Positions 3,693-54,901 of a DNA stretch of 54,987 nucleotides are shown piece by piece. The notes beneath the pieces are model-generated. The model worked only from the letters and a program-made list of their open reading frames with translations. It did no database searches and was not told where the DNA came from. The position numbers were made by a program, and so were the translations under genes. The DNA comes from Alphaproteobacteria bacterium (GTDB taxonomy: Bacteria; Pseudomonadota; Alphaproteobacteria; RF32; CAG-239): NCBI GenBank assembly GCA_017480745.1, contig JAFUSA010000024.1, positions 1 through 54,987 of the forward strand, given 5' to 3'. The first letter of the stretch is position 1. Every line of letters begins with the position of its first letter.

Positions 3693-4457
3693 TTATTCAA
3701 ACAAAAAACTTAGGCTATTATCTTTTTTACAGGCATTAATAGCTTTTTCCATTGGAAAAGGGATACCGATTTGTGTTCCTCCAACTAAAGCTACGTAAGT
3801 AGGATTGTCACCAGAATTTTCTAATTCTTCATAAGCACCATGCAACCATCCCGGCTCCCCTCTTGCTATTCCCAAGAAACCAGAGGCAACACTACCCCAG
3901 TCCATAGTCAATAGTTCTATGCAAGCTTCTTGAGGAATAGAAGCAAATTTCAAACTAAAAGCATAATCCTGTCCTTTTTTGTTTAAAGCACTTTCAATAA
4001 ATATATCACCGAATGCACCTTGATATCGACTTCCGTTAATTACTTCATCTGGCACAAGTTTGGCTTTTTTAATAATTGCTTTTCCTGTATCAGAGTATGA
4101 AGATAATCCGTCATAATTTCTTTGCGGAGCAAAAAAGGCTCTCACATTTCCGGCAATTAACGTTATTTGTTCAATGGTTTTATTGATTCGATACTTCATC
4201 ATGGCTTTTGAATATCCGGCGATTCCGCCAACCGATAAAACGCCGATAATGGCGAGAACACCCAACATCTCAATCATGCTTCTTCCGTATTGCGGCACAT
4301 CTGCTTGTCTGTTTTTCGCTGGTGTACTGTCTGTGTACACGGCGCTCAAAACAGTCGGCGCATCTGCACCACTCTCCGGAAGAAGGCAGCGTCCGGATTG
4401 TCTCTCTCTCCCGCAAGGGGCGAGAGAAGCATTATTTTTTATTTCTAAGTTTCTCAT
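3693..4457 (-). CDS. Type IV pilin-like cassette protein (cassette 2)
   Basis: A 254-residue pilin-like protein. The prepilin cleavage site is G58/R59 in QYGRSMIEMLG, with Glu at mature position 5 and the hydrophobic stretch LGVLAIIGVLSVGGIAGY. The leader is 58 residues, far longer than usual. It carries two successive insertions: a SLAPCGRERQSGR segment, then a LLPESGADAPTVLSAV-type segment also found in cassette 9. The mature domain has the FFAPQRNYDGL variant, IKKAKLVPDEV, and PQEACIELLTMDWG. It is convergent with acpS. Type B RNA and promoter lie upstream. Family resemblance is to PilS/type IVb pilins; export and assembly are inferred. Confidence 0.88.
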   Translation of the reverse strand: MRNLEIKNNASLAPCGRERQSGRCLLPESGADAPTVLSAVYTDSTPAKNRQADVPQYGRSMIEMLGVLAIIGVLSVGGIAGYSKAMMKYRINKTIEQITLIAGNVRAFFAPQRNYDGLSSYSDTGKAIIKKAKLVPDEVINGSRYQGAFGDIFIESALNKKGQDYAFSLKFASIPQEACIELLTMDWGSVASGFLGIARGEPGWLHGAYEELENSGDNPTYVALVGGTQIGIPFPMEKAINACKKDNSLSFLFE

Positions 4458-4496
4458 AGTAAACTTCCTTTCGTATGAATTGTTGATATTACATTA

Positions 4497-4670
4497 AAAC
4501 AACCGCCCGATAGAGGCGGCCGGAAGTTCAAGACTATTTTACGTGAAATAGTGTCGCGTATTCATTCACATTTATTCCACGACCTTCCGACCATTGTCGG
4601 AAATATTTTAACGCCACGAACGGCGCACGTAAAAGAGGTCTTGACACCCCAGACGAGTTACCTCATCTTA
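4497..4670 (-). ncRNA. Type B structured cassette RNA (cassette 2)
   Basis: On the minus strand the RNA opens with hairpin AGATGAG-GTAA-CTCGTCT (4651-4668). The long-range helices are TCAAGAC/GTCTTGA and TTTTACGTG/CACGTAAAA. An internal hairpin is TTCCGAC-aatg-GTCGGAA. It ends with a CCGCC..GGGCGG hairpin and TTGTTTT, a terminator-like 3' end before the pilin ribosome binding site. All these helices recur with different bases in the other type B copies. Whether it acts as an mRNA leader or a free small RNA cannot be told from sequence. Confidence 0.85.
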
Positions 4671-7163: not shown

Positions 7164-7191
7164 TTGACTTTTGAATTTTTTGTGATAACAT
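7164..7191 (+). promoter_or_regulatory. Cassette 3 promoter
   Basis: TTGACT (7164-7169) and TAACAT (7186-7191) are separated by 16 nt containing TTTGAATTTTTTGTGA, the spacer shared by most cassettes. Confidence 0.75.
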
Positions 7192-7197
7192 AGAAAC

Positions 7198-7390
7198 AGA
7201 ACTTCGGTTCGGGGCTTTCAACAGCTCTTGTAGAATTCGGTGCTTTGCGTCGTTATTAGGTTTGATAAATATCTCCGATTGGGTCGGGGAGTCTGTGGCG
7301 GATGTTCAGAGCTTTGGCTTAAAGGTTGCAGAAATCATTTAATTCTACATGATTGTTGAACTCCCCTGCCGCCGTTCCGGCGGTTTTTTA
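7198..7390 (+). ncRNA. Type A structured cassette RNA (cassette 3)
   Basis: Hairpin GAAC-TTCG-GTTC at 7199-7210. Long-range helix GGGGCTTTCAACA (7211-7223) pairs with TGTTGAACTCCCC (7354-7366). TGTAGAATT (7229-7237) pairs with AATTCTACA (7341-7349). CGGTGC/GCGTCG forms a hairpin at 7238-7252, and CTCCGA/TCGGGGAG one at 7273-7291. A further stem CTGTGGC/GTTGCAG encloses the GTTCAG..TAAAG hairpin. It ends with a perfect terminator, CCGCCG-TTC-CGGCGG plus T6 (7369-7389). AAGGAA at 7408-7413 then serves the pilin. This is the cleanest copy for structure modelling. Confidence 0.88.
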
Positions 7391-7421: not shown

Positions 7422-8162
7422 ATGAAAAATATTAATTATAATAATGAAAATGGTCGTTCAATGATAGAAATGCTTGGCGTGTTGGCAATTATAGGCGTTT
7501 TATCAGTTGGCGGAATCGCTGGATATTCTAGGGCCATGCAAAAGTATAGAATCAATAAAACGATTGAACAAATAACGCTTATCGCAGGGAATATTCGCAC
7601 ATTCTTTGGATCACAGAGAAATTATGCCGGGGTATATTGCTATGCGCAAGATGGCAATGGTAGGGAACTTTGTTATTCTGGATGTAATGGAGCAGCTGGC
7701 TTTTATACTAACGGATCGCCTAAAACGGAAAACAACGGCTGTCCAGTAATTAAAAAAGCAAAAATAGTACCAGATGATATGATTACTTCAGATGATGAGT
7801 TTGGAATTAAAGCTATCACTAATCCTTTTGGTTATGGAGTTTCTTTATCATATGCTAATAAATCTTTAAATAACGATTATAAGGCATTTATGATTTCTTA
7901 CTGGATAGATAATGATCAAGAAACTTGTATAGACCTTTTAACCCAGGATTGGAGCACATTAGGACAAACAGTGGTCGCTGTTGAAAGATGTTCAGATGGA
8001 ACTAGTGGCTGCGCCGATAAATGGTTTATTCCACCTGCCAATATTGATGATGCGGTTAATACTTGTGACACTCTGACATATTTTATTACATCGTTCGAAT
8101 TATTTATTGATATAGATGTTAATTCTACTTATTGGCAAAGCAGAATCAATCCATCTTCATAG
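7422..8162 (+). CDS. Type IV pilin-like cassette protein (cassette 3)
   Basis: A 246-residue protein with a short 11-residue leader (MKNINYNNENG) cut before RSMIEMLGVLAIIGVL. The helix continues GYSRAMQKYRINKTIEQITLI, with small deviations from the family (SRAMQ for SKAMM). The variable domain has FFGSQRNYAGV, a cysteine-rich insertion near YCYAQDG and YSGCNG, KKAKIVPDDM, ITNPFGYGV and QETCIDLLTQDWS. The six or more cysteines may form disulphides after export. It is convergent with the TPR gene, with a shared terminator between. Upstream lie type A RNA and promoter. Confidence 0.9.
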   Translation: MKNINYNNENGRSMIEMLGVLAIIGVLSVGGIAGYSRAMQKYRINKTIEQITLIAGNIRTFFGSQRNYAGVYCYAQDGNGRELCYSGCNGAAGFYTNGSPKTENNGCPVIKKAKIVPDDMITSDDEFGIKAITNPFGYGVSLSYANKSLNNDYKAFMISYWIDNDQETCIDLLTQDWSTLGQTVVAVERCSDGTSGCADKWFIPPANIDDAVNTCDTLTYFITSFELFIDIDVNSTYWQSRINPSS

Positions 8163-12299: not shown

Positions 12300-12998
12300 T
12301 TAACGTTCGCCTAATTGGTCAGTCCAATAAGTTGAGTTGGCATCTACATCAAAATATAACCATATTTCATTTTCATCACTACAATATTGTGTGGCAATGT
12401 CTAAGTCAGCAGGAGTTTTGCTGTTATAGGAGTCATTGATATTGATTATAGAAGCTCCGGCATTGCTCCAATCATGAGTTGCTAACTCAATACATGCTTC
12501 TTGTGGAAGACCATAGTAATAAATACCAAATGCCTGATTATCCCTGCTTTTAGCTTTATTTGTTACATATAAACCACCCCCGTAACCAAAAGGATTGGTA
12601 ATAGACATAATCTTGCCATCAGTTACGGTAATCATTTCATCAGGGAATATTTTAGCTTTTTTAACTATCGGACAGCCATCGTTGGCAGATTGTCCTGTGC
12701 AACCGGAGGCGGGGCAAGTGCCATCAACATAAGAACTACCGCAATACACTCCGATATAGTTCTTCTGTGGTCCCCAAAAGGCACGCACATTACCGGCAAT
12801 CAAAGTGATTTGTTCAATGGTTTTATTGATGCGATACTTCATCATCGCTTTTGAATATCCGGCGATTCCTCCAACCGATAACACGCCGATGATGGCAAGC
12901 ACTCCCAACATTTCTATCATTGAACGACCGCTCTGTGCATTTTTCGTCATTGCGAGCGCAGTGTGGCAATCTGTATTTTTTATCTCTAAGTTTCTCAT
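12300..12998 (-). CDS. Type IV pilin-like cassette protein (cassette 4)
   Basis: A 232-residue protein with a 24-residue leader, MRNLEIKNTDCHTALAMTKN plus AQSG, then RSMIEMLGVLAIIGVL. The leader segment CHTALAMTK is encoded by a palindromic repeat (ATTGCCACACTGCG..CGCAATGACG type) inserted in frame. The mature domain is the FWGPQKNYIGV subtype, with cysteines around GSSYVDGTCPASGC, KKAKIFPDEM and QEACIELATHDWS. The sequence is very similar to cassette 1 through to the stop. It is convergent with the Lon-like gene. It is the only complete copy that joins the FWGPQ pilin subtype to a type A RNA. Confidence 0.9.
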   Translation of the reverse strand: MRNLEIKNTDCHTALAMTKNAQSGRSMIEMLGVLAIIGVLSVGGIAGYSKAMMKYRINKTIEQITLIAGNVRAFWGPQKNYIGVYCGSSYVDGTCPASGCTGQSANDGCPIVKKAKIFPDEMITVTDGKIMSITNPFGYGGGLYVTNKAKSRDNQAFGIYYYGLPQEACIELATHDWSNAGASIININDSYNSKTPADLDIATQYCSDENEIWLYFDVDANSTYWTDQLGER

Positions 12999-13030: not shown

Positions 13031-13229
13031 AAAAAATTGACCGTCAAACGGCGGTCGGGAGAGTTCGAAAATCATATGTTTCTAAATGATCCGCTCAACC
13101 TTTAGACATAAGTCCTGAACATCCGCAGAGCGCTCCCCAACCCAGGTCGGAGATATATCAAATGTAAATAACGACGTATATACGCCGAGAAACATAAGAG
13201 CTTTCGAAGGCTCTCGAACCGAAGTTCTG
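13031..13229 (-). ncRNA. Type A structured cassette RNA (cassette 4)
   Basis: On the minus strand: hairpin GAAC-TTCG-GTTC (13216-13227), outer helix GAGAG..TTCGAAA with TTTTCGAA..CTC, variable helix TATGTTTC/GAAACATA, hairpin CGGCGTA..ACGTCG, hairpin CTCCGAC..GTTGGGGAG, and the GTTCAGGAC..GTCTAAAG element. The 3' hairpin GACCGCC..GACGGTC with TTTTTT (13031-13056) is terminator-like. Confidence 0.87.
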
Positions 13230-18241: not shown

Positions 18242-18415
18242 AGGATGAGGTAACTTGTCTGAGGTGTGGAAACCTCTTTTGTGTGCGTCCGAAAGACGAC
18301 AAATTTTCCGGCTTTTATGGTCGGAAGGTCGTAAAATAGATATTCATGAATATACGACACTATTTCACACAAAGTAGTTTCCAACTTCCGGCCGCCTTGT
18401 TTGGCGGTTGTTTTA
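18242..18415 (+). ncRNA. Type B structured cassette RNA (cassette 5)
   Basis: Hairpin GATGAG-GTAA-CTTGTC (18244-18259) with G-U pairs. Long-range helices are TGGAAAC/GTTTCCA and TTTGTGTG/CACACAAA. Inner hairpins are CGTC-CGAAA-GACG, TTCCGGC..GTCGGAA, and a GTCGTA..TACGAC stem around ATATTCATGAATAT. It ends with CCGCC..GGCGG followed by TTGTTTT. Confidence 0.86.
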
Positions 18416-18449: not shown

Positions 18450-19082
18450 TTGAGAAACTTAGAAATTAAAAATAATGATTGCCACGCTGCGCTCGCAATG
18501 ACGAAAAGCGTGCAGAGCGGACGTTCAATGATAGAAATGCTTGGCGTGCTTGCCATAATCGGTGTGCTTTCTGTTGGTGGAATCGCCGGATATTCAAAAG
18601 CCATGATGAAATATCGGATTAACAAAACCATTGAGCAGGTAGCCCTTATTGCCGGAAACGTGCGGACATTTTTTGCTCCACAAGGGAATTATGATGGGTT
18701 ATATTCTGGTGATAACACAGGATTAGCAATAATTAAAAAAGCCAAACTTGTGCCTGATGAAATGCTTACTGTTAATGATTCTGGTAAAATAACCGCTATC
18801 ACCAATCCTTTTGGTGGAGGTTTTGATATTCAAAATGAAAGAAAATTAATCAGTGGAGAAGGAGATAACAAAGCTTTTTATATGACAATAAGAGGTGTTC
18901 CGCAAGAGGCTTGCATTGAAATATCAACGTACGATTGGACTGTTGCCGGAGTAACTTCAATTTACATTGGTCAGAACTTTGTTCCTCCGATTGATGTTGC
19001 TATTGCGTCTCAGTATTGTTCGGATAATAATACGATAGAACTATATTTTGATTCGGAATATTGGAAAAGCATCAGTAATTGA
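18450..19082 (+). CDS. Type IV pilin-like cassette protein (cassette 5)
   Basis: A 210-residue protein. The start appears to be TTG at 18450; the equivalent position in sister copies with the same GAAGTTTACT/GTTTAAT context is ATG. The 24-residue leader is MRNLEIKNND plus CHAALAMTKSVQSG, encoded by an in-frame palindromic repeat. The motif RSMIEMLGVLAIIGVL follows. The helix end reads IEQVALIAGN in place of the usual IEQITLIAGN. The domain is the FFAPQGNYDGL subtype with KKAKLVPDEM, ITNPFGGGF and PQEACIEISTYDWT. It is convergent with rplA, and a terminator lies between. Confidence 0.88.
   Translation: MRNLEIKNNDCHAALAMTKSVQSGRSMIEMLGVLAIIGVLSVGGIAGYSKAMMKYRINKTIEQVALIAGNVRTFFAPQGNYDGLYSGDNTGLAIIKKAKLVPDEMLTVNDSGKITAITNPFGGGFDIQNERKLISGEGDNKAFYMTIRGVPQEACIEISTYDWTVAGVTSIYIGQNFVPPIDVAIASQYCSDNNTIELYFDSEYWKSISN
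18478..18499 (+). repeat. Palindromic repeat inserted in the cassette 5 leader
   Basis: ATTGC (18478-18482) pairs with GCAAT (18495-18499) in the widely seen ATTGCCACGCTGCGCTCGCA form. A near-identical unit lies in the leader of cassette 4. It is translated as CHAALAMTK and keeps the frame. Confidence 0.7.
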
Positions 19083-21394: not shown

Positions 21395-21597
21395 AGAACT
21401 TCGGTTCGAGAGTCTTCAAAAGCTCTTACATACTACGGTGCCTGCGGCATTGTTATTTAGGTATGATAAATATCTCCGACATGGGTTGGGGAGCCGTTAG
21501 TGGATGTTCAGGAACTTTGTTCTAAAGGTTAACGGGATCATTTTAGTATGTGTGATTTTTGAACTCTCCCGACCGCCGTTTGACGGTCAATTTTTTA
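21395..21597 (+). ncRNA. Type A structured cassette RNA (cassette 6)
   Basis: Hairpin GAAC-TTCG-GTTC (21396-21407). Outer helix GAGAG..TTCAAAA with TTTTTGAA..CTCTC. Variable helix ACATACTA/TAGTATGT. Hairpins GGTGCC-tgc-GGCATT and CTCCGAC..GTTGGGGAG, stem CCGTTA/TAACGG, and AGGAAC-ttt-GTTCT before TAAAG. The 3' hairpin GACCGCC..GACGGTC is followed by AATTTTTT (21571-21596). Confidence 0.88.
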
Positions 21598-21630: not shown

Positions 21631-22230
21631 ATGATAAACTTAAATCTAAAAAATGAAAACGGTCGCTCAATGATAGAAATGTTGGGCGTTTTAGCTATTA
21701 TCGGCGTACTTTCTGTTGGCGGAATTGCCGGATATTCTAAGGCGATGATGAAATATCGCATCAATAAAACCATAGAGCAAATAACTTTAACTGCCGGTAA
21801 TGTGCGAACATTTTTTAGCTCACAAAAAAATTATTACGACTTATCAACCAATGTTATCAAAAAAGCCAAATTAGTGCCTGATGAAATGTGGAATAAAAAT
21901 GTATGGGGTGGAGATTTTCTTGTTCATCCGATTCCAGTAAGTGGACAAAATAAGAAATATTTTGGAATATCTATTTACAAAATTCCACAAGAGGCATGTA
22001 TAGAATTAGCAACATATGATTGGAGTGTAGTTTCAGCTTATGCAATAGAAGTAGCTCCTACATCAACAACAGATATTAGTCACTATGGAGGAGGAATTAA
22101 AGGATGTAACTCTGGTAATGATTCTTTTGGTGGATACTTAGAATGCAATAGTTCTAATATGACATTAGAACAAGCTGTACAATATTGTAAAAACGCAGAG
22201 GTAAACTCTATAACTCTTGCTATACAATAA
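21631..22230 (+). CDS. Type IV pilin-like cassette protein (cassette 6)
   Basis: A 199-residue protein with an 11-residue leader (MINLNLKNENG) before RSMIEMLGVLAIIGVL. The helix ends IEQITLTAGN. The domain is FFSSQKNYYDL, IKKAKLVPDEM, and PQEACIELATYDWS. A Gly/Ser/Asn-rich insert with two cysteines follows (HYGGGIKGCNSGNDSFGGYL). The ITNPFGG motif is replaced by a VWGGDFLVHPI segment, as in cassette 7 (VWGG). It is convergent with nifJ. Confidence 0.9.
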   Translation: MINLNLKNENGRSMIEMLGVLAIIGVLSVGGIAGYSKAMMKYRINKTIEQITLTAGNVRTFFSSQKNYYDLSTNVIKKAKLVPDEMWNKNVWGGDFLVHPIPVSGQNKKYFGISIYKIPQEACIELATYDWSVVSAYAIEVAPTSTTDISHYGGGIKGCNSGNDSFGGYLECNSSNMTLEQAVQYCKNAEVNSITLAIQ

Positions 22231-26386: not shown

Positions 26387-27124
26387 TCATTCAAACAGGG
26401 AAGCATCAGTTTCTACTTGTTGAAGATTGGCAGCTTCAAAGCCGAACCATATACGTCCTTCGTTATCAGTATTGCTAACTTCACATAATGATACTATCTT
26501 ATCCAAAGCGATAGGTGTAGGCAGACACTTCTCGGGTCCGCCTTTGCACAAATATGTAACTTTTAAATCAGACCAATCTTGGCTGAATAGTTCAATACAA
26601 GCTTCATTAGGTACTTCTTGCATATCTATGGTAAAATTTTTAGTGCCTCCACCGTTAATGGAATGATGAATGTGGGTTATTCCACCCCATACATTTTTAA
26701 TATCATCACCATCCCACATTTCATCAGGAACAAGTTTTGCTTTTTTGACTATTGCTTGTCCTGTATCACCGGATGTATTTAATCCTTCATAACTCCTCTG
26801 CGGAGCAAAAAATGTCCGCACGTTTCCGGCAATTAAGGTTATCTGCTCAATGGTTTTATTGATTCTGTATTTCATCATTGCTTTGCTGTATCCGGCGATT
26901 CCACCAACAGAGAGAACGCCAATGATAGCGAGCACACCAAGCATCTCAATCATTGAACGTCCGCTCTGTGTGGCAGAGCCACACTTATGGTCATGCCTCG
27001 ATTCCGCAGGAATCGTCAAGGCATCTTCCGCTTGATTAAAATTAATTTGAAGATCCCTTGACGTATTCGCATTTTCAATGCTCAATGTGGGATGACTTTT
27101 TATATTTTTTTCTGATTTTTTCAT
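26387..27124 (-). CDS. Type IV pilin-like cassette protein (cassette 7)
   Basis: A 245-residue protein. The leader is 55 residues because a roughly 100-nt palindromic element is inserted in frame (RDLQINFNQAEDALTIPAES and flanks), ending ATQSG before RSMIEMLGVLAIIGVL. The same element is in cassette 11. The domain is FFAPQRSYEGL, VKKAKLVPDEM, a VWGG segment in place of NPFGG, and PNEACIELFSQDWS, then a CKGGPEKC loop. Downstream it is convergent with the small membrane gene; upstream the type A RNA is divergent from lemA. Confidence 0.88.
   Translation of the reverse strand: MKKSEKNIKSHPTLSIENANTSRDLQINFNQAEDALTIPAESRHDHKCGSATQSGRSMIEMLGVLAIIGVLSVGGIAGYSKAMMKYRINKTIEQITLIAGNVRTFFAPQRSYEGLNTSGDTGQAIVKKAKLVPDEMWDGDDIKNVWGGITHIHHSINGGGTKNFTIDMQEVPNEACIELFSQDWSDLKVTYLCKGGPEKCLPTPIALDKIVSLCEVSNTDNEGRIWFGFEAANLQQVETDASLFE
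27014..27063 (-). repeat. Palindromic element inserted in the cassette 7 leader
   Basis: CGTCAAGGCATCTTC (27014-27028) pairs with GAAGATCCCTTGACG (27049-27063), one mismatch/bulge. A second small palindrome, GATTCCGCAGGAATC, abuts it. The unit recurs in cassette 11 at 52225-52274. Confidence 0.8.
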
Positions 27125-27155: not shown

Positions 27156-27361
27156 AAAAAAAATCAACCACCAAACGGCGGTCGGGAGAGTTAAACAATC
27201 ATATTTCCTAAAATGATCTCCACAATCTTTAAGCTAAACGCTCTGAACATCCATTGCGGACTCCCCAACCAAAGTCGGAGATATTTATCATACCAAATAA
27301 CGATACCATAAACGATACCGTAGGAAATAAGAGCTGTTTAAGGCCCCGAACCGAAGTTCTA
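27156..27361 (-). ncRNA. Type A structured cassette RNA (cassette 7)
   Basis: Minus strand: hairpin GAAC-TTCG-GTTC (27348-27359); variable helix TTTCCTA/TAGGAAA; hairpin CGGTATC..GGTATCG; hairpin CTCCGAC..GTTGGGGAG; stem CCGCAAT/ATTGTGG; GAGC..GCTT inside GTTCAG..TAAAG. The 3' hairpin is followed by eight T residues. Helix sequences differ from all other copies but remain paired. Confidence 0.88.
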
Positions 27362-36969: not shown

Positions 36970-37566
36970 TTATTCAAAATGAAATATCGTAATAGAGTTC
37001 TCAGCGCATAATAAAATAGCATCATCAATAGTCATTGGTGTATTATATTGCTTGTTCCCTCGTGCTATAGACAACACACCTATGTAAGACCAATCCTGAG
37101 AAACAATATCTACGCACGCTTCTTCTGGTATATTGTCATATTCAATATCAAAAAGTTTAGCATCTCCTTCAACTGATTTATCCTGATACCACAAAAAAAT
37201 AGGTCCACCAAAAGCATTATTTAATTGTTTAACAGTAGCCCCATCAGCTTCGTATTCAATAATTTCATCTGGTGCTAATCTGGCTTTTTTTATCAGTTCC
37301 CAACCATCCCAAGATTCAGAACCGTCTACATTGCTACACTGATTTGATGAACATAATCCATAGAAATTTCTCTGTGGCGCAAAAAATGCGCGCACATTGC
37401 CGGCGATAAGGGTTATTTGCTCAATGGTTTTATTTATGCGATACTTCATCATTGCCTTACTATATCCGGCAATTCCACCAACAGATAATACGCCGATTAT
37501 AGCAAGCACACCCAACATCTCAATCATTGAACGACCTGTTTCATTTTTTATTTCAAAGTTTTTCAT
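36970..37566 (-). CDS. Type IV pilin-like cassette protein (cassette 8)
   Basis: A 198-residue protein with a short 11-residue leader (MKNFEIKNETG) before RSMIEMLGVLAIIGVL. The domain is FFAPQRNFYGL, a CSSNQCSNVDG loop, KKARLAPDEI, LNNAFGGPIFL in place of the NPFGG motif, and PEEACVDIVSQDWS. It is tandem with, not convergent to, sufB downstream. It has no downstream palindrome. Type A RNA precedes it. Confidence 0.9.
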   Translation of the reverse strand: MKNFEIKNETGRSMIEMLGVLAIIGVLSVGGIAGYSKAMMKYRINKTIEQITLIAGNVRAFFAPQRNFYGLCSSNQCSNVDGSESWDGWELIKKARLAPDEIIEYEADGATVKQLNNAFGGPIFLWYQDKSVEGDAKLFDIEYDNIPEEACVDIVSQDWSYIGVLSIARGNKQYNTPMTIDDAILLCAENSITIFHFE

Positions 37567-37602: not shown

Positions 37603-37800
37603 AAAATATGACCGCCAAACGGCGATCAGGGAGTTAAACAATCATACATAGTAAAATGATCCCGTTAATCTTTAGGACAAGTCCCTGAACATCCACCAAC
37701 GGCTCCCCAATCAAAATCGGAGATATAATCAATATTTTTTAACGATGCACAAAAACACCGTACTATGTAAGAGCTGTTTAAGGCCCTGAACCGAAGTTCA
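37603..37800 (-). ncRNA. Type A structured cassette RNA (cassette 8)
   Basis: Minus strand: hairpin GAAC-TTCG-GTTC (37788-37799); variable helix TACATAGTA/TACTATGTA, 9 bp perfect; hairpin CGGTGT..GCATCG; hairpin CTCCGAT..TTGGGGAG; stem CCGTTGGT/ATTAACGG; GGGAC-tt-GTCCT in the GTTCAG..TAAAG element. 3' end GATCGCC..GGCGGTC then ATATTTTTA, a weaker terminator. Confidence 0.87.
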
Positions 37801-42869: not shown

Positions 42870-43706
42870 TTAACAACCACCTTCTTCTACGCTACAATCT
42901 TCTAATTTTTCTTTCCAATACTCACTTGATGGATCTGCGTCAAAGTAAAAGTATAATGATTTGTTTGTCGGTTCATCTTCGCAAATAGTTATGGCTTCGT
43001 CCACGCTGAGCGGAGGAACTTCACGAAATTCCCAATTTTCAGTTGAACCAACAACAGACACATTAGCATTGCTCCAATCTTGGGATAGTAACTCAATACA
43101 TGCTTCTTCATTATCTCCGATGTTGTATTTAATAAAAAACGCCTGATTATCACCGCTTTTGGATTTAACTGTCGAACCTAACTCAACCCCACCACCAAAA
43201 GGATTGGTAATAGACATAATCTTACCATCAGTTACGGTAATCATTTCATCAGGGAATATTTTGGCTTTTTTATGGATTGGGCAGCCATCACCGTAAGATA
43301 GACCATTGCAACCGGAGGCGAGGCAAGTGCCATTGCTGTAAGTACTACAATCCACCCCGATATAATTCTTCTGTGGTCCCCAAAAGGCACGCACATTACC
43401 GGCAATGAGAGTTATCTGCTCAATGGTTTTATTGATACGATATTTCATCATCGCTTTTGAATATCCGGCGATTCCACCGACAGACAGAACGCCTATAATA
43501 GCCAGAACGCCAAGCATCTCTATCATGCTTCTTCCGTATTGCAGCACATCTGCTTGTCTGTTTTTCGCTGGTGTACTGTCTGTGTACACGGCACTCAAAA
43601 CAGTCGGCGCATCTGCACCACTCTCCGGAAGAAGTGTAAGACCTGATTGGCTCTCTTTCCCATTGCGGGCGAGAGAATCATTATTTTTAATTTCTAAGTT
43701 TTTCAT
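42870..43706 (-). CDS. Type IV pilin-like cassette protein (cassette 9)
   Basis: A 278-residue protein with a 58-residue leader like that of cassette 2: MKNLEIKNND, a SLARNGKESQSG unit, then TLLPESGADAPTVLSAV and on to QYG before RSMIEMLGVLAIIGVL. The mature domain is the FWGPQKNYIGV subtype with KKAKIFPDEM, ITNPFGGGV, and NEEACIELLSQDWS. The tail has extra cysteines (EDCSVEEGGC). It is convergent with the EF-hand gene. Type B RNA lies upstream. Confidence 0.88.
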   Translation of the reverse strand: MKNLEIKNNDSLARNGKESQSGLTLLPESGADAPTVLSAVYTDSTPAKNRQADVLQYGRSMIEMLGVLAIIGVLSVGGIAGYSKAMMKYRINKTIEQITLIAGNVRAFWGPQKNYIGVDCSTYSNGTCLASGCNGLSYGDGCPIHKKAKIFPDEMITVTDGKIMSITNPFGGGVELGSTVKSKSGDNQAFFIKYNIGDNEEACIELLSQDWSNANVSVVGSTENWEFREVPPLSVDEAITICEDEPTNKSLYFYFDADPSSEYWKEKLEDCSVEEGGC

Positions 43707-43745: not shown

Positions 43746-43922
43746 AAACAATACCGCCCGATAAAGGCGGCCGGAAGTTCGTAACTAATTCAGACTAAAT
43801 AGTGTCGCATATTAAGCATAAGCTTTATTTTGCAACCTTCCGACCAAAGCCGGAAATATTTTACGTCAACAACGACGAGTCTGAAAGAGGTTACGACACC
43901 TCAGACAAGTTACCTTATCTTG
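43746..43922 (-). ncRNA. Type B structured cassette RNA (cassette 9)
   Basis: Minus strand: hairpin AGATAAG-GTAA-CTTGTCT (43903-43920), which shows an A-T in place of the G-C pair of cassette 2. Long-range helices TCGTAAC/GTTACGA and TTCAGACT/AGTCTGAA. Hairpin TTCCGGC..GTCGGAA. 3' end CCGCC..GGGCGG then TATTGTTTT. Confidence 0.86.
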
Positions 43923-45939: not shown

Positions 45940-46112
45940 CAAGATGAGGTAAAATTCATCTGGGGTCTCGAAGCCTCTTCTAAGTACGTCATTTTAAAGA
46001 GACGTTAAAATTTTCCAGCATGGCTGGAAGGTGGGTGAATAAGTTGAATAGTCCGCGCTATATTACTTAGAATAGTTTCGAGCTTCCAGCCGCCTCATTG
46101 GGCGGTTATTTT
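45940..46112 (+). ncRNA. Type B structured cassette RNA (cassette 10)
   Basis: Hairpin AGATGA..TCATCT (45942-45961) with a loop longer than the GTAA of other type B copies. Long-range helices CTCGAA/TTCGAG and TCTAAGTA/TACTTAGA. Hairpin TTCCAGC-atg-GCTGGAA. 3' end CCGCC..GGCGG then TTATTTT. The internal stem is fully base-substituted versus cassette 5 but still pairs. Confidence 0.86.
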
Positions 46113-46150: not shown

Positions 46151-46933
46151 ATGAGAAACTTAGAGATAAAAAATAATGATTCTCTCTCCCGCAAGGGGCG
46201 AGGGAGCCAGTCCGGACGTTCAATGATTGAGATGCTTGGTGTGTTAGCCATCATCGGTGTTTTATCGGTTGGCGGAATAGCCGGATATTCAAAGGCAATG
46301 ACAAAGTATCGCATTAACAAAGCCATTGAGCAAATAACTCTCATTGCCGGTAATGTGCGTGCTTTCTGGGGACCACAGAAGAACTATATCGGGGTGCATT
46401 GTTATGGAAATAATTGCAACGCCTCCGGTTGCTTTGGGCATTCCGGCGTTAATGCAAACGGAAATTCTACCTGGGCTTACAATGGCTGTCCGATAGTTAA
46501 AAAAGCCAAAATATTCCCTGATGAGATGATTACCGTAACTGATGGTAAAATTATGTCTATTACTAATCCTTTCGGTGGTAGGGTTGATTTATTGACAAGG
46601 GATAAAGCTAAATACGCTGATAATCAGGCGTTTAGTATTTATTACTCTATCGGGGATAATGTTGAAGCTTGTATTGAATTGTTGACACATGGTTGGACAT
46701 CAGCTAATGTTAAGGCTATTGCGATTGATGATGGAGACGATCCTTTTGAGGAATTTTTTAAAATACCTGTTTCGGTTGATTTGGCGGTTACAAGATGTTC
46801 TGCCGCTATGAATGCTGCAAAGGCTATATCACCTATGTTTCCTTATATTGATTTTTATTTTGATATTGATTTAAACGGTAGTATATGGAATCCCAAACCT
46901 TCTGATGCAGGTGGTAATGATTGGCAAAACTAA
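46151..46933 (+). CDS. Type IV pilin-like cassette protein (cassette 10)
   Basis: A 260-residue protein with a 22-residue leader (MRNLEIKNND, then SLSRKGRGSQSG from an in-frame CTCTCTCCCGCAAGGGGCGA repeat). RSMIEMLGVLAIIGVL follows; the helix end reads MTKYRINKAIEQ, two changes from the family. The domain is FWGPQKNYIGV, CNASGCFGHSG, KKAKIFPDEM, ITNPFGGRV, and VEACIELLTHGWT, ending in an extra NPKPSDAGGNDWQN tail. It is convergent with the gltD-like gene, with the palindrome between. Confidence 0.9.
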   Translation: MRNLEIKNNDSLSRKGRGSQSGRSMIEMLGVLAIIGVLSVGGIAGYSKAMTKYRINKAIEQITLIAGNVRAFWGPQKNYIGVHCYGNNCNASGCFGHSGVNANGNSTWAYNGCPIVKKAKIFPDEMITVTDGKIMSITNPFGGRVDLLTRDKAKYADNQAFSIYYSIGDNVEACIELLTHGWTSANVKAIAIDDGDDPFEEFFKIPVSVDLAVTRCSAAMNAAKAISPMFPYIDFYFDIDLNGSIWNPKPSDAGGNDWQN

Positions 46934-51462: not shown

Positions 51463-52338
51463 TTAATTTGCCCAAGTATTGTTTTTCCAATATTCGCTAT
51501 TGACATCAACATCGAAGTAGAAAGTCAGATTAATGTTATCGCTGTCATAAAGAGCTGAATCCTCTTCTATGGCTTTTGAACATACTTCAACTGCCTTATC
51601 AACGCTTACCGGAGTTTTTAGATATGCATCGTAATCTCCAGAATCTCCCATAACATATATTACTTTAACATTAGCATTGCTCCAATCTTGAGATAATAAT
51701 TCAATACATGCTTCTTCATTATGTATGTAGTAATGGATATAAAATGCCTGATTATCTCCAGACTTGGATTTTTCATAACTATCTAAACTAACCCTACCAC
51801 CGAAAGGATTGGTAATAGACGTAATCTTACCATCAGTTACGGTAATCATTTCATCAGGGAATATTTTGGCTTTTTTAACTATCGGACAGCCATTGGCAGC
51901 AGTGGTAGGAACTCCTTGTGCATCAACGCCGGAATGCCCATAGCAACCGGAGGCTCTGCAAGTGCCATCATTATTACTACTAAAACAATGCACCCCGATA
52001 TAATTCTTCTGTGGTCCCCAAAATGTGCGCACATTACCGGCAATGAGTGTTATTTGCTCAATAGTTTTGTTAATACGATACTTCATCATGGCTTTGGAAT
52101 AGCCGGCGATGCCACCAACAGAGAGAACGCCGATTATGGCAAGCACGCCAAGCATCTCTATCATTGAGCGACCGCTTTGTGTGGTAGAGCCACACTTATA
52201 GTCATGCCTCGATTCCGCAGGAATCGTCAAGGCATCTTCCGCTTGATTAAAATTAATTTGAAGATCCCTTGACGCATTCGCCTTTGCAAGGCTCAGCGAG
52301 GGATGACTCTTTATATTTTTTATTTCTAAGTTTATCAT
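51463..52338 (-). CDS. Type IV pilin-like cassette protein (cassette 11)
   Basis: A 291-residue protein, the longest copy. The 56-residue leader (MINLEIKNIK, then the RDLQINFNQAEDALTIPAES element and STTQSG) precedes RSMIEMLGVLAIIGVL. The domain is FWGPQKNYIGV, CRASGCYGHSG, KKAKIFPDEM, ITNPFGGRV, NEEACIELLSQDWS and a tail FYFDVDVNSEYW. It is convergent with lpxK. It shares palindrome and gltD tail with cassette 10, but its leader element with cassette 7. Confidence 0.9.
   Translation of the reverse strand: MINLEIKNIKSHPSLSLAKANASRDLQINFNQAEDALTIPAESRHDYKCGSTTQSGRSMIEMLGVLAIIGVLSVGGIAGYSKAMMKYRINKTIEQITLIAGNVRTFWGPQKNYIGVHCFSSNNDGTCRASGCYGHSGVDAQGVPTTAANGCPIVKKAKIFPDEMITVTDGKITSITNPFGGRVSLDSYEKSKSGDNQAFYIHYYIHNEEACIELLSQDWSNANVKVIYVMGDSGDYDAYLKTPVSVDKAVEVCSKAIEEDSALYDSDNINLTFYFDVDVNSEYWKNNTWAN
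52225..52274 (-). repeat. Palindromic element inserted in the cassette 11 leader
   Basis: CGTCAAGGCATCTTC (52225-52239) pairs with GAAGATCCCTTGACG (52260-52274), with GATTCCGCAGGAATC abutting. Same unit as 27014-27063, similarly placed inside the coding leader. Confidence 0.8.
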
Positions 52339-52375: not shown

Positions 52376-52549
52376 TAAAACAACCGCCAGATATAGGCGG
52401 CCGGAAGCTGAAAACTATCGTAGACCAAATAGTGTCGTGTATTTAATTTAACCTATTCCACGACCTTCCGACCAAAGTCGGAAAAGTTAACGCTCTTTAC
52501 AGCGAGTCTACAAGAGGTTTTCAGACCTCAGACAAGTTACCTTATCTTA
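52376..52549 (-). ncRNA. Type B structured cassette RNA (cassette 11)
   Basis: Minus strand: hairpin AGATAAG-GTAA-CTTGTCT (52530-52547); helices CTGAAAAC/GTTTTCAG and GTAGAC/GTCTAC; hairpin TTCCGAC..GTCGGAA; 3' end CCGCC..TGGCGG then TTGTTTT. Confidence 0.86.
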
Positions 52550-53997: not shown

Positions 53998-54195
53998 AGA
54001 ACTTCGGTTCGGAGCCTTAGAAAGCTCATGATGTGTACGGTGCGTTTTGTATCGTGATATATGGTGATATCTCCGACTTGGTTGGGGAGCATTCAATGGG
54101 TGTTCAGGGCGGGAGCCTAAAGATTGAGTGGATCATTTTACATGTCATGATTTTCTAACTCTCCCGACCACCGTTTGGTGGTCAGATTGGTATTA
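53998..54195 (+). ncRNA. Type A structured cassette RNA (cassette 12)
   Basis: Hairpin GAAC-TTCG-GTTC (53999-54010). Helix GGAG..TTAGAAA/TTTTCTAA..CTCC. Variable helix ATGATGTGTA/TACATGTCAT. Hairpin CGGTGCG..TGTATCG with G-U pairs. CTCCGAC..GTTGGGGAG hairpin, stem CATTCAAT/ATTGAGTG, GGGC-ggga-GCCT. The 3' hairpin GACCACC..GGTGGTC (54166-54183) has only a poor T-tract, so termination is doubtful in this copy. Confidence 0.87.
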
Positions 54196-54232: not shown

Positions 54233-54901
54233 ATGAAAACATATAAAACAGAATCCGGTCGTTCAATGATTGAGATGTTGGGCGTTTTGGCTATTATCGG
54301 CGTTTTATCGGTTGGTGGTATTGCCGGATACTCAAAAGCAATGATGAAGTATCGCACCAATAAAACCATTGAACAGATATCAATGATTGTTACCAATGTG
54401 CGCACTCTGTTCGGCTCTCAAAAGAATTATAAAGCTTTAGGGGCAGAAACAAAGGGTTCTTTAATTGCCAAAGCAAAATTATTTCCGGATGAGTTGCTGA
54501 ATGGCTCCACCGATATAATAGAAAACGGTAATCCGTTTGGTGGCGCTATTGAGTTGGTTGCTGCGGTTCGGGCAGATGATACGGATATCGATGATACAAA
54601 TTGTAAAGGATGCGGGGATGCCAGGGCGTTTGTTGTGGCGTTTACCAACATTCCGGAAGAAGCTTGTATGGATTTAGCAACTCAGGATTGGGGTTCTGCT
54701 TCCGGTTCCGGATTGATAGAAGCAAGGACTGTAAGTGAAGTAGCGGATACAACTTTATCCGGATTCCAAGCACATGTCGGTGATGATTGCGACGAAAACA
54801 AAGACGGAGTTGCCTGCGGCGGTAAAGGGCCTATGTCGGCTTCCAGTGCAGCAGCCGTTTGTGATGGTGACGAAAATGCGTTACTTTTGAAATTTTACTA
54901 A
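54233..54901 (+). CDS. Type IV pilin-like cassette protein (cassette 12)
   Basis: A 222-residue protein with the shortest leader, 9 residues (MKTYKTESG), before RSMIEMLGVLAIIGVL. The helix reads MMKYRTNKTIEQISMIVTNVR, the most divergent. The domain is LFGSQKNYKAL, IAKAKLFPDEL, a GNPFGGAIEL motif, and PEEACMDLATQDWG. Cysteines in CKGCGD, DDCDENKDG and VACGG add several possible disulphides. AGAAGGAGA lies 8 nt upstream of the ATG. Nothing recognisable follows up to the window end. Confidence 0.9.
   Translation: MKTYKTESGRSMIEMLGVLAIIGVLSVGGIAGYSKAMMKYRTNKTIEQISMIVTNVRTLFGSQKNYKALGAETKGSLIAKAKLFPDELLNGSTDIIENGNPFGGAIELVAAVRADDTDIDDTNCKGCGDARAFVVAFTNIPEEACMDLATQDWGSASGSGLIEARTVSEVADTTLSGFQAHVGDDCDENKDGVACGGKGPMSASSAAAVCDGDENALLLKFY

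Follow-up and report, generated by a model that had tools for sequence, protein, structure and literature searches.

A putative C4-like attenuation leader RNA expanded on type IVb pilin genes in an alphaproteobacterial genome

Approximately 177 copies of a leader RNA, nearly all of them preceding type IVb pilin genes, are found in the small gut bacterium whose genome supplied the DNA analyzed here. The existence of a structured RNA is nearly certain. We consider it probable that the leader acts in cis by transcription attenuation, is built like the C4 precursor of phages P1 and P7, and has been expanded on pilins.

Results

Leader copies and pilin genes in the window

The window, i.e., the whole stretch of 54,987 nt that was analyzed, contains exactly 11 leader copies (six of type A and five of type B), the number given in the original prediction, which had also placed the reference copy at 7198-7390, correctly to within a few bases. 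The copies and the genes behind them are as follows.

7198..7387 (+), reference leader, type A; sequence, pairing statistics, model R1 search
7422..8162 (+), type IVb pilin gene behind the reference leader; Pfam Bundlin above cut-off
13037..13228 (-), type A leader; R1 match, 185 bits
12300..12998 (-), pilin gene behind leader 13037-13228; PilS
21395..21590 (+), type A leader; R1 match
21631..22230 (+), pilin gene behind leader 21395-21590; PilS and Bundlin
27164..27360 (-), type A leader; R1 match
26387..27124 (-), pilin gene behind leader 27164-27360; PilS and Bundlin
37608..37800 (-), type A leader; R1 match
36970..37566 (-), pilin gene behind leader 37608-37800; Bundlin and PilS
53998..54185 (+), type A leader; R1 match
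54233..54901 (+), pilin gene behind leader 53998-54185; PilS and Bundlin
4496..4669 (-), type B leader; R3 match, 188 bits
3693..4457 (-), pilin gene behind leader 4496-4669; PilS match at 3903-4184, above cut-off
18242..18414 (+), type B leader; R3 match
18450..19082 (+), pilin gene behind leader 18242-18414; PilS and Bundlin
43747..43921 (-), type B leader; R3 match
42870..43706 (-), pilin gene behind leader 43747-43921; Bundlin
45941..46112 (+), type B leader; R3 match, core also matching RF02221 at E 4.5e-4
46151..46933 (+), pilin gene behind leader 45941-46112; Bundlin
52377..52548 (-), type B leader; R3 match
51463..52338 (-), pilin gene behind leader 52377-52548; Bundlin and PilS

Bundlin or PilS was matched in 10/10 window pilins run against Pfam, and the eleventh has a PilS match.

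In many pilin genes, palindrome-like repeats, e.g., GATTGCCACGCTGCGCTCGCAATGACG, are inserted in frame downstream of the start codon and upstream of the motif for prepilin cleavage, which makes the pilin leader peptide longer. Examples in the window lie at 12940-12985 (-) and 18470-18510 (+). We take these inserts to resemble the palindromic repeats of Rickettsiales.

Fold and covariation

The structured RNA with covariation that had been proposed from the window is borne out by 44 type A copies of the genome, by a tree-based null, and by a cross-species alignment. Across the 44 copies, nine helices form standard pairs in 98.6% of base-pair cells, and for 35 of the 55 pairs both partners have changed. 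Covariation scored 0.513, compared to 0.206 for shuffled alignments and 0.06-0.09 for helices slid by 1-3 columns, and all five pairing and covariation measures lie above all 500 shuffles. The original prediction had named R-scape as a check; run as an R-scape-like test, in which substitutions are redistributed on a FastTree tree in imitation of that program, it returned 21 column pairs at E<0.5, 20 of them structural pairs (best E 3e-6). An 85-copy cross-species alignment gave the same covariation outcome as the type A set. We note that copies from one genome are paralogues and possibly recombine, which weakens tree-based nulls, a concern that the cross-species alignments answer in part.

The strand pairs quoted for the variable helix are all present in the sequence and pair as quoted, the last one (TACATGTCAT) with two G-U wobbles. 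The elements of the fold in the reference copy are listed here.

7199..7210 (+), P0 hairpin GAAC-UUCG-GUUC; paired in 44/44 copies
7212..7227 (+), P1 hairpin, whose loop carries a1; pairing over 44 type A copies
7217..7223 (+), a1, in the P1 loop, pairs with a′; 99.0% of cells paired, both-side changes in 6/7 pairs, best E 3e-6
7229..7237 (+), b1, 5′ strand of the variable helix; both-side changes in 9/9 pairs, E 3e-5 to 0.1
7238..7252 (+), P3 hairpin (CGGUGC); 99.2% of cells paired
7273..7289 (+), P4 hairpin (CUCCGA:UCGGGG); 97.7% of cells paired (register 7273-7291), mean -6.9 kcal/mol
7292..7332 (+), P5/P6 stem, interrupted by the conserved internal loop GGAUGUUCA / UAAAG; pairing in 99.1% and 100% of cells
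7334..7353 (+), P7 hairpin AUCAU..AUGAU with b′ in its loop; pairing of 99.1% over 85 cross-species copies
7341..7349 (+), b′, variable-helix 3′ strand; covariation with b1
7354..7360 (+), a′, pairs with the P1 loop; covariation with a1

The a1:a′ long-range helix, the hairpin at 7334-7353 and a candidate antiterminator helix go beyond what had been predicted.

Type B copies follow the plan of type A with different bases, and structure and covariation are supported in them too. The two types look as if two subfamilies had expanded side by side. Their conserved internal loops differ (AUGUUCA/UAAAG in type A, GAAUA/AAUA in type B) within a shared architecture.

Copy-specific long-range helices

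The strongest covarying pairs belong to the variable helix b1:b′ and to helix a1:a′. The latter covaries as strongly as the variable helix, and its a′ strand sits directly 5′ of the terminator region. When the a1/b1 strands were compared with the address strands of their own copy and of other copies, complementarity was 15.2 own versus 1.9 cross in type A, 14.8 versus 1.5 in type B, and 13.9 versus 4.6 across species; each of the three tests gave p ~3e-4, the minimum that the test can return. These comparisons show address pairs that are, as judged by complementarity, private to each copy.

Promoter, closing stem, and terminator

The following elements of the reference copy bear on transcription.

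7164..7191 (+), sigma-70-like promoter TTGACT, 16 nt, TAACAT; from sequence, its end lying 6 nt upstream of the RNA
7282..7370 (+), C4-like core: closing stem, P5/P6, P7 with loop b′, strand a′; fold topology as in P1 C4 and sRNA-Xcc1
7282-7291 with 7361-7370 (+), closing stem GGUCGGGGAG:CUCCCCUGCC, candidate antiterminator; complementarity and own-versus-cross tests
7368..7389 (+), intrinsic terminator; sequence, 97.4% of cells paired (type A), mean -10.1 kcal/mol

All 78 of 78 copies have a promoter-like site, with a spacing of 16 in 68/78 and with a -10 box that ends 6 nt before the RNA in 62/78. Downstream of the terminator come a Shine-Dalgarno sequence and then the pilin start codon. The leader sequences contain the elements of an intrinsic attenuator: a GC hairpin and a U run before the RBS, and a mutually exclusive upstream helix.

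The P4 3′ arm (GGUCGGGGAG) is complementary both to the P4 5′ arm and to the pre-terminator strand CUCYCCGACC, which overlaps the 5′ arm of the terminator. The terminator together with this shared-strand stem points to transcription attenuation. Across species the closing stem is paired in 92.8% of cells, and in type B all 9 of its pairs form in 34/34 copies, as does the terminator (34/34). The stem is stronger than P4 in 78/78 copies, and its strands match each other better than they match partners taken from other copies, with p=2e-4 in a diverse set and p=5e-5 for 24 alphaproteobacterial strand pairs that were read by hand and picked by eye. Tested pair by pair, covariation was not significant in the closing stem, in P4 or in P7, because all three vary too little, the closing stem hardly at all within each set; the support for these three helices comes from complementarity, own-versus-cross tests and the homologous stem in C4.

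Relationship to sRNA-Xcc1 and phage C4 RNA

Judging from the sequence and fold comparisons below, the leader is a strongly diverged, unrecognized branch of a known kind and not a class without relatives. The original prediction had reported no match to a known family and suggested an Rfam scan. That statement stands at the level of Rfam thresholds: no family reached its gathering score in the window, where only noise appeared at E up to 10, and two sets of 20 related loci gave no family at threshold except neighboring tRNAs. It does not stand for relatives as such, since C4 and sRNA-Xcc1 relatives were found.

The model of sRNA-Xcc1 (RF02221) matches, over its full length, the 3′ half of six distant homologues at the homologous place, below threshold (24-37 bits, best 37.2, with the gathering score set at 53). 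It is also matched by three type B copies of the genome (E 1.6e-4 to 4.5e-4, up to 34.7 bits). In the other direction, two true sRNA-Xcc1 loci are recovered by a full-length alphaproteobacterial model, R2 (E 4.5e-6 and 0.002), E-values of the models built for this analysis being rough. Neither the window nor the homologues nor the genome's own type B copies reach the membership score (>=53 bits). The RF02221 core fold, comprising a closing stem, a long hairpin, a short hairpin and a 3′ single strand, is present in the leaders, as is an a1/b1 pair in the RF02221 manner; the accompanying a2/b2 pair is absent from them.

We established the layout of sRNA-Xcc1 loci from 30 true loci. Upstream of the annotated 87-nt core, as in the leaders and in the same order, lie an a1 hairpin loop and a b1 strand (14.2 own versus 7.4 cross; best of 5000 permutations 10.4). 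Unlike the leaders, sRNA-Xcc1 loci keep a2/b2 around an RBS, often before phage antirepressors or SymE; at many loci these copies are found at the RBS of the next gene (10.2 own, 4.5 cross, best permutation 7.4). Genes behind the loci include Bro-N, KilA-N, P22_AR_N, Phage_pRha and SymE. Judging from these loci (L223-L252), a cis antisense system of the C4 type seems to have sRNA-Xcc1 as its core, so that the RNA would not be a trans-acting sRNA only.

Phage P1 uses the C4 antisense RNA for immunity, and the a2/b2 copies at the RBS are the actual target of C4. In the P1 annotation the order is a1 (TTGACAG), b1, C4 RNA, a2, b2. On folding, P1 C4, sRNA-Xcc1, type A and type B give one core topology, including a 3-nt 3′ overhang. 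The leaders share with C4 of P1/P7 (RF01695; c4-a1b1 motif, Weinberg et al. 2010, PMC2864571) the order a1, b1, hairpin, core; a core made of a closing stem, a long hairpin, a hairpin with b′ in its loop and then a′; and private address pairs, with copy-specific a′:a1 and b′:b1 pairing. C4 is processed by RNase P at GGW, and its a′/b′ set target specificity (PMC5320573); the 5′ GG and 3′ RCC ends of the leader core resemble those of the processed RNA (PMC5320573).

The leaders also differ from C4. In them a terminator follows the core and overlaps the closing stem, an additional hairpin, P4, competes for the 5′ strand of the core, and the gene behind is a pilin or another surface gene in place of an antirepressor. 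A search of the genome with RF01695 at E 0.001 gave nothing, control genomes being silent as well, and RF01695 had no match in relaxed-E scans of the window and homologues. Copies a2/b2 on either side of the downstream gene's RBS were sought by complementarity in the terminator class of leaders and are absent (p 0.99, 0.14, 0.10). The mode of action therefore cannot equal that of C4, and P1-like control by RBS masking is unlikely. In the literature searched, a single paper names both C4 and sRNA-Xcc1, giving them as separate families, and no link between C4 and pilins was found.

The C4-like core also raises the possibility that the locus is mainly the precursor of a trans-acting sRNA, with RNase P freeing C4-like cores, the terminator ending the sRNA and read-through into the pilin being secondary. 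There is precedent in sRNA-Xcc1 itself, which RACE and Northern blotting mapped as an RNA of 88 nt (PMC2996969), and in Acinetobacter, which has a family of >20 processed C4-like sRNAs (PMC5320573); the tRNA-like ends are conserved in the leaders. The Group 1 sRNAs of Acinetobacter baumannii are likewise multi-copy, chromosomal and variable in the a′ loop, and are processed from longer transcripts; they are described as trans-acting sRNAs of ~20 copies and not as leaders of paralogous genes (PMC5320573), whereas the 177 copies here have intact own-address pairs and terminators. We regard an sRNA precursor as distinctly unlikely, in that nearly all copies stand directly before a start codon and the address complements its own leader, not other leader copies.

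A metabolite riboswitch or protein-binding leader is a further alternative. Its pocket would be the strictly conserved internal loop AUGUYCA/UAAAG, the long-range helices would be drifting scaffold, and a ligand would stabilize either P4 and the terminator or the closing stem. The leaders resemble terminator/antiterminator riboswitches in that promoter, structured domain with mutually exclusive helices, intrinsic terminator and RBS stand in riboswitch order; moreover, unpaired bases are conserved across families, the genes downstream are largely surface or secreted proteins, and c-di-GMP is plausibly made, as the genome has one intact diguanylate cyclase. Against this, the two most variable helices correspond exactly to the C4 address pairs, whose strands in sRNA-Xcc1 are repeated at the RBS, a repetition not accounted for by scaffolding; type B keeps the architecture but with another internal loop; and the leaders have neither a known aptamer nor an Rfam riboswitch match. 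We know of no parallel to copy-specific address helices among riboswitches, and we judge this alternative unlikely.

A search of the genome for GGDEF proteins returned exactly one, with an intact GGEEF motif (L194, G000:C7:111344-111814). A c-di-GMP riboswitch was considered on this basis and rejected, as nothing links the gene to the leader RNA.

Expansion in the genome

The 1.6-Mb genome (34 contigs) has at least 177 leader copies, 83 of type A and 94 of type B, as counted by model search with R1 above 150 bits for strong type A and R3 above 90 bits for strong type B; the two lists do not overlap. Leaders are present on both strands at a density of ~1 per 9 kb. For 112 of the 125 PilS-family genes in the genome, a leader lies upstream on the same strand, compared to 3 leaders that had an opposite-strand match in the control. 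Among 78 inspected copies, 71 are followed by an in-frame pilin, and 3 more by a pilin motif in another frame.

One leader (L010, G000:C20:36069-36256), in which the variable helix is weakened (6/8 pairs), is followed by no pilin start and may represent a recombinant copy at a dead gene.

Such numbers invite the explanation that the repeat matters as DNA, as the end of a mobile or recombining cassette whose structure serves recombination or ssDNA folding. The very high copy number and the presence on both strands would fit, as would the occurrence of sRNA-Xcc1 in integron cassettes, where it lies upstream of symE (PMC12444791). The copies nevertheless occupy a constant position on one side of a gene, together with promoter, terminator and RBS; G-U pairs, which favor RNA, are frequent in the helices; and the core pattern had no match among viral contigs. 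We consider a role as DNA highly improbable.

Spread by phage was also rejected as a candidate, given the same viral-contig result.

Homologues in other alphaproteobacteria

Of 289 genomes that sampled the class, 31 contain homologues; these span many families and include GC-rich genomes. Further homologues lie on named MAG contigs from gut, rumen and insects. The genes behind them encode mostly secreted or surface proteins, with some nucleases and regulators. Within the same genus, most genomes have 0-9 copies and one has 44. The large expansion is special to the source genome. The type-A-specific pattern had no match in the genome collection because the source genome was left out of it and its relatives differ.

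The genome with ~44 leaders (G011) belongs to another species of the genus and represents a second, separate expansion, with several of its leaders before BspA-like repeat proteins.

A single leader-lipoprotein pair (CTxLTxQEQ..L..LKAxG) recurs in several species (loci L026, L090, L107, L145, L151, L160 and L168). It may represent the ancestral single-copy leader site of the group.

A pattern match in a Lachnospiraceae record (L158) was unconfirmed by model and set aside.

Discussion

Comparative analysis of the copies shows, as far as can be read from sequence, the folds, the private addresses, the terminator, the promoter-like sites, the pilin association and mutually exclusive pairing options. 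For the favored reading, a C4-like attenuation leader acting in cis, we propose the following mechanism. Each leader would comprise its own promoter, a1 and b1, a C4-like core with a′ and b′, a terminator, a Shine-Dalgarno sequence and a start codon, and two folds would compete for the P4 3′ arm. In the putative OFF fold, P4 would form, a1:a′ and b1:b′ would tie the ends together, and the terminator would be free, so that the gene is off. In the putative ON fold, the P4 3′ arm would pair with the pre-terminator strand, the core would close, and the terminator 5′ arm would be partly taken, resulting in read-through. The closed core, with its tRNA-like ends (GGU ... RCC), may then be excised by RNase P, as C4 is, and a released core would address only nascent leaders of its own gene.

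The closed core as a possible RNase P substrate follows by analogy from what is known of C4; the determinants seen in the leaders are the sequence features GGU and RCC only. Switching between the two folds in the cell, the assignment of the ON fold, cutting by RNase P and action in trans are what we infer, promoter use, termination, processing and switching all being judged at the sequence level. A further extension, in which the ~177 leaders are independent bistable switches, each recognizing itself by its own a/b code, and a released core favors read-through of its own gene only, would give a heritable choice of pilin and a changing cell surface without DNA rearrangement. We view this extension as rather doubtful.

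If the C4-like attenuation reading is true, a phage-immunity type of antisense RNA would have been turned into a private switch for >100 surface genes, in a copy number far above the 20-odd C4-like sRNAs of Acinetobacter. It would also allow alphaproteobacteria of the animal gut and rumen to vary their surface repertoire by RNA alone. For sRNA-Xcc1, which has been treated as a trans-acting sRNA, our results suggest a cis-encoded, C4-like system beside prophage antirepressors, of which it would form the core. Questions that arise are by what means a C4-type core selects its own target when many copies are nearly identical, and how ~177 leaders are managed within a single genome. Overall, our analysis suggests that a phage-type RNA switch has been reused for gene-by-gene control of a large surface-protein repertoire.
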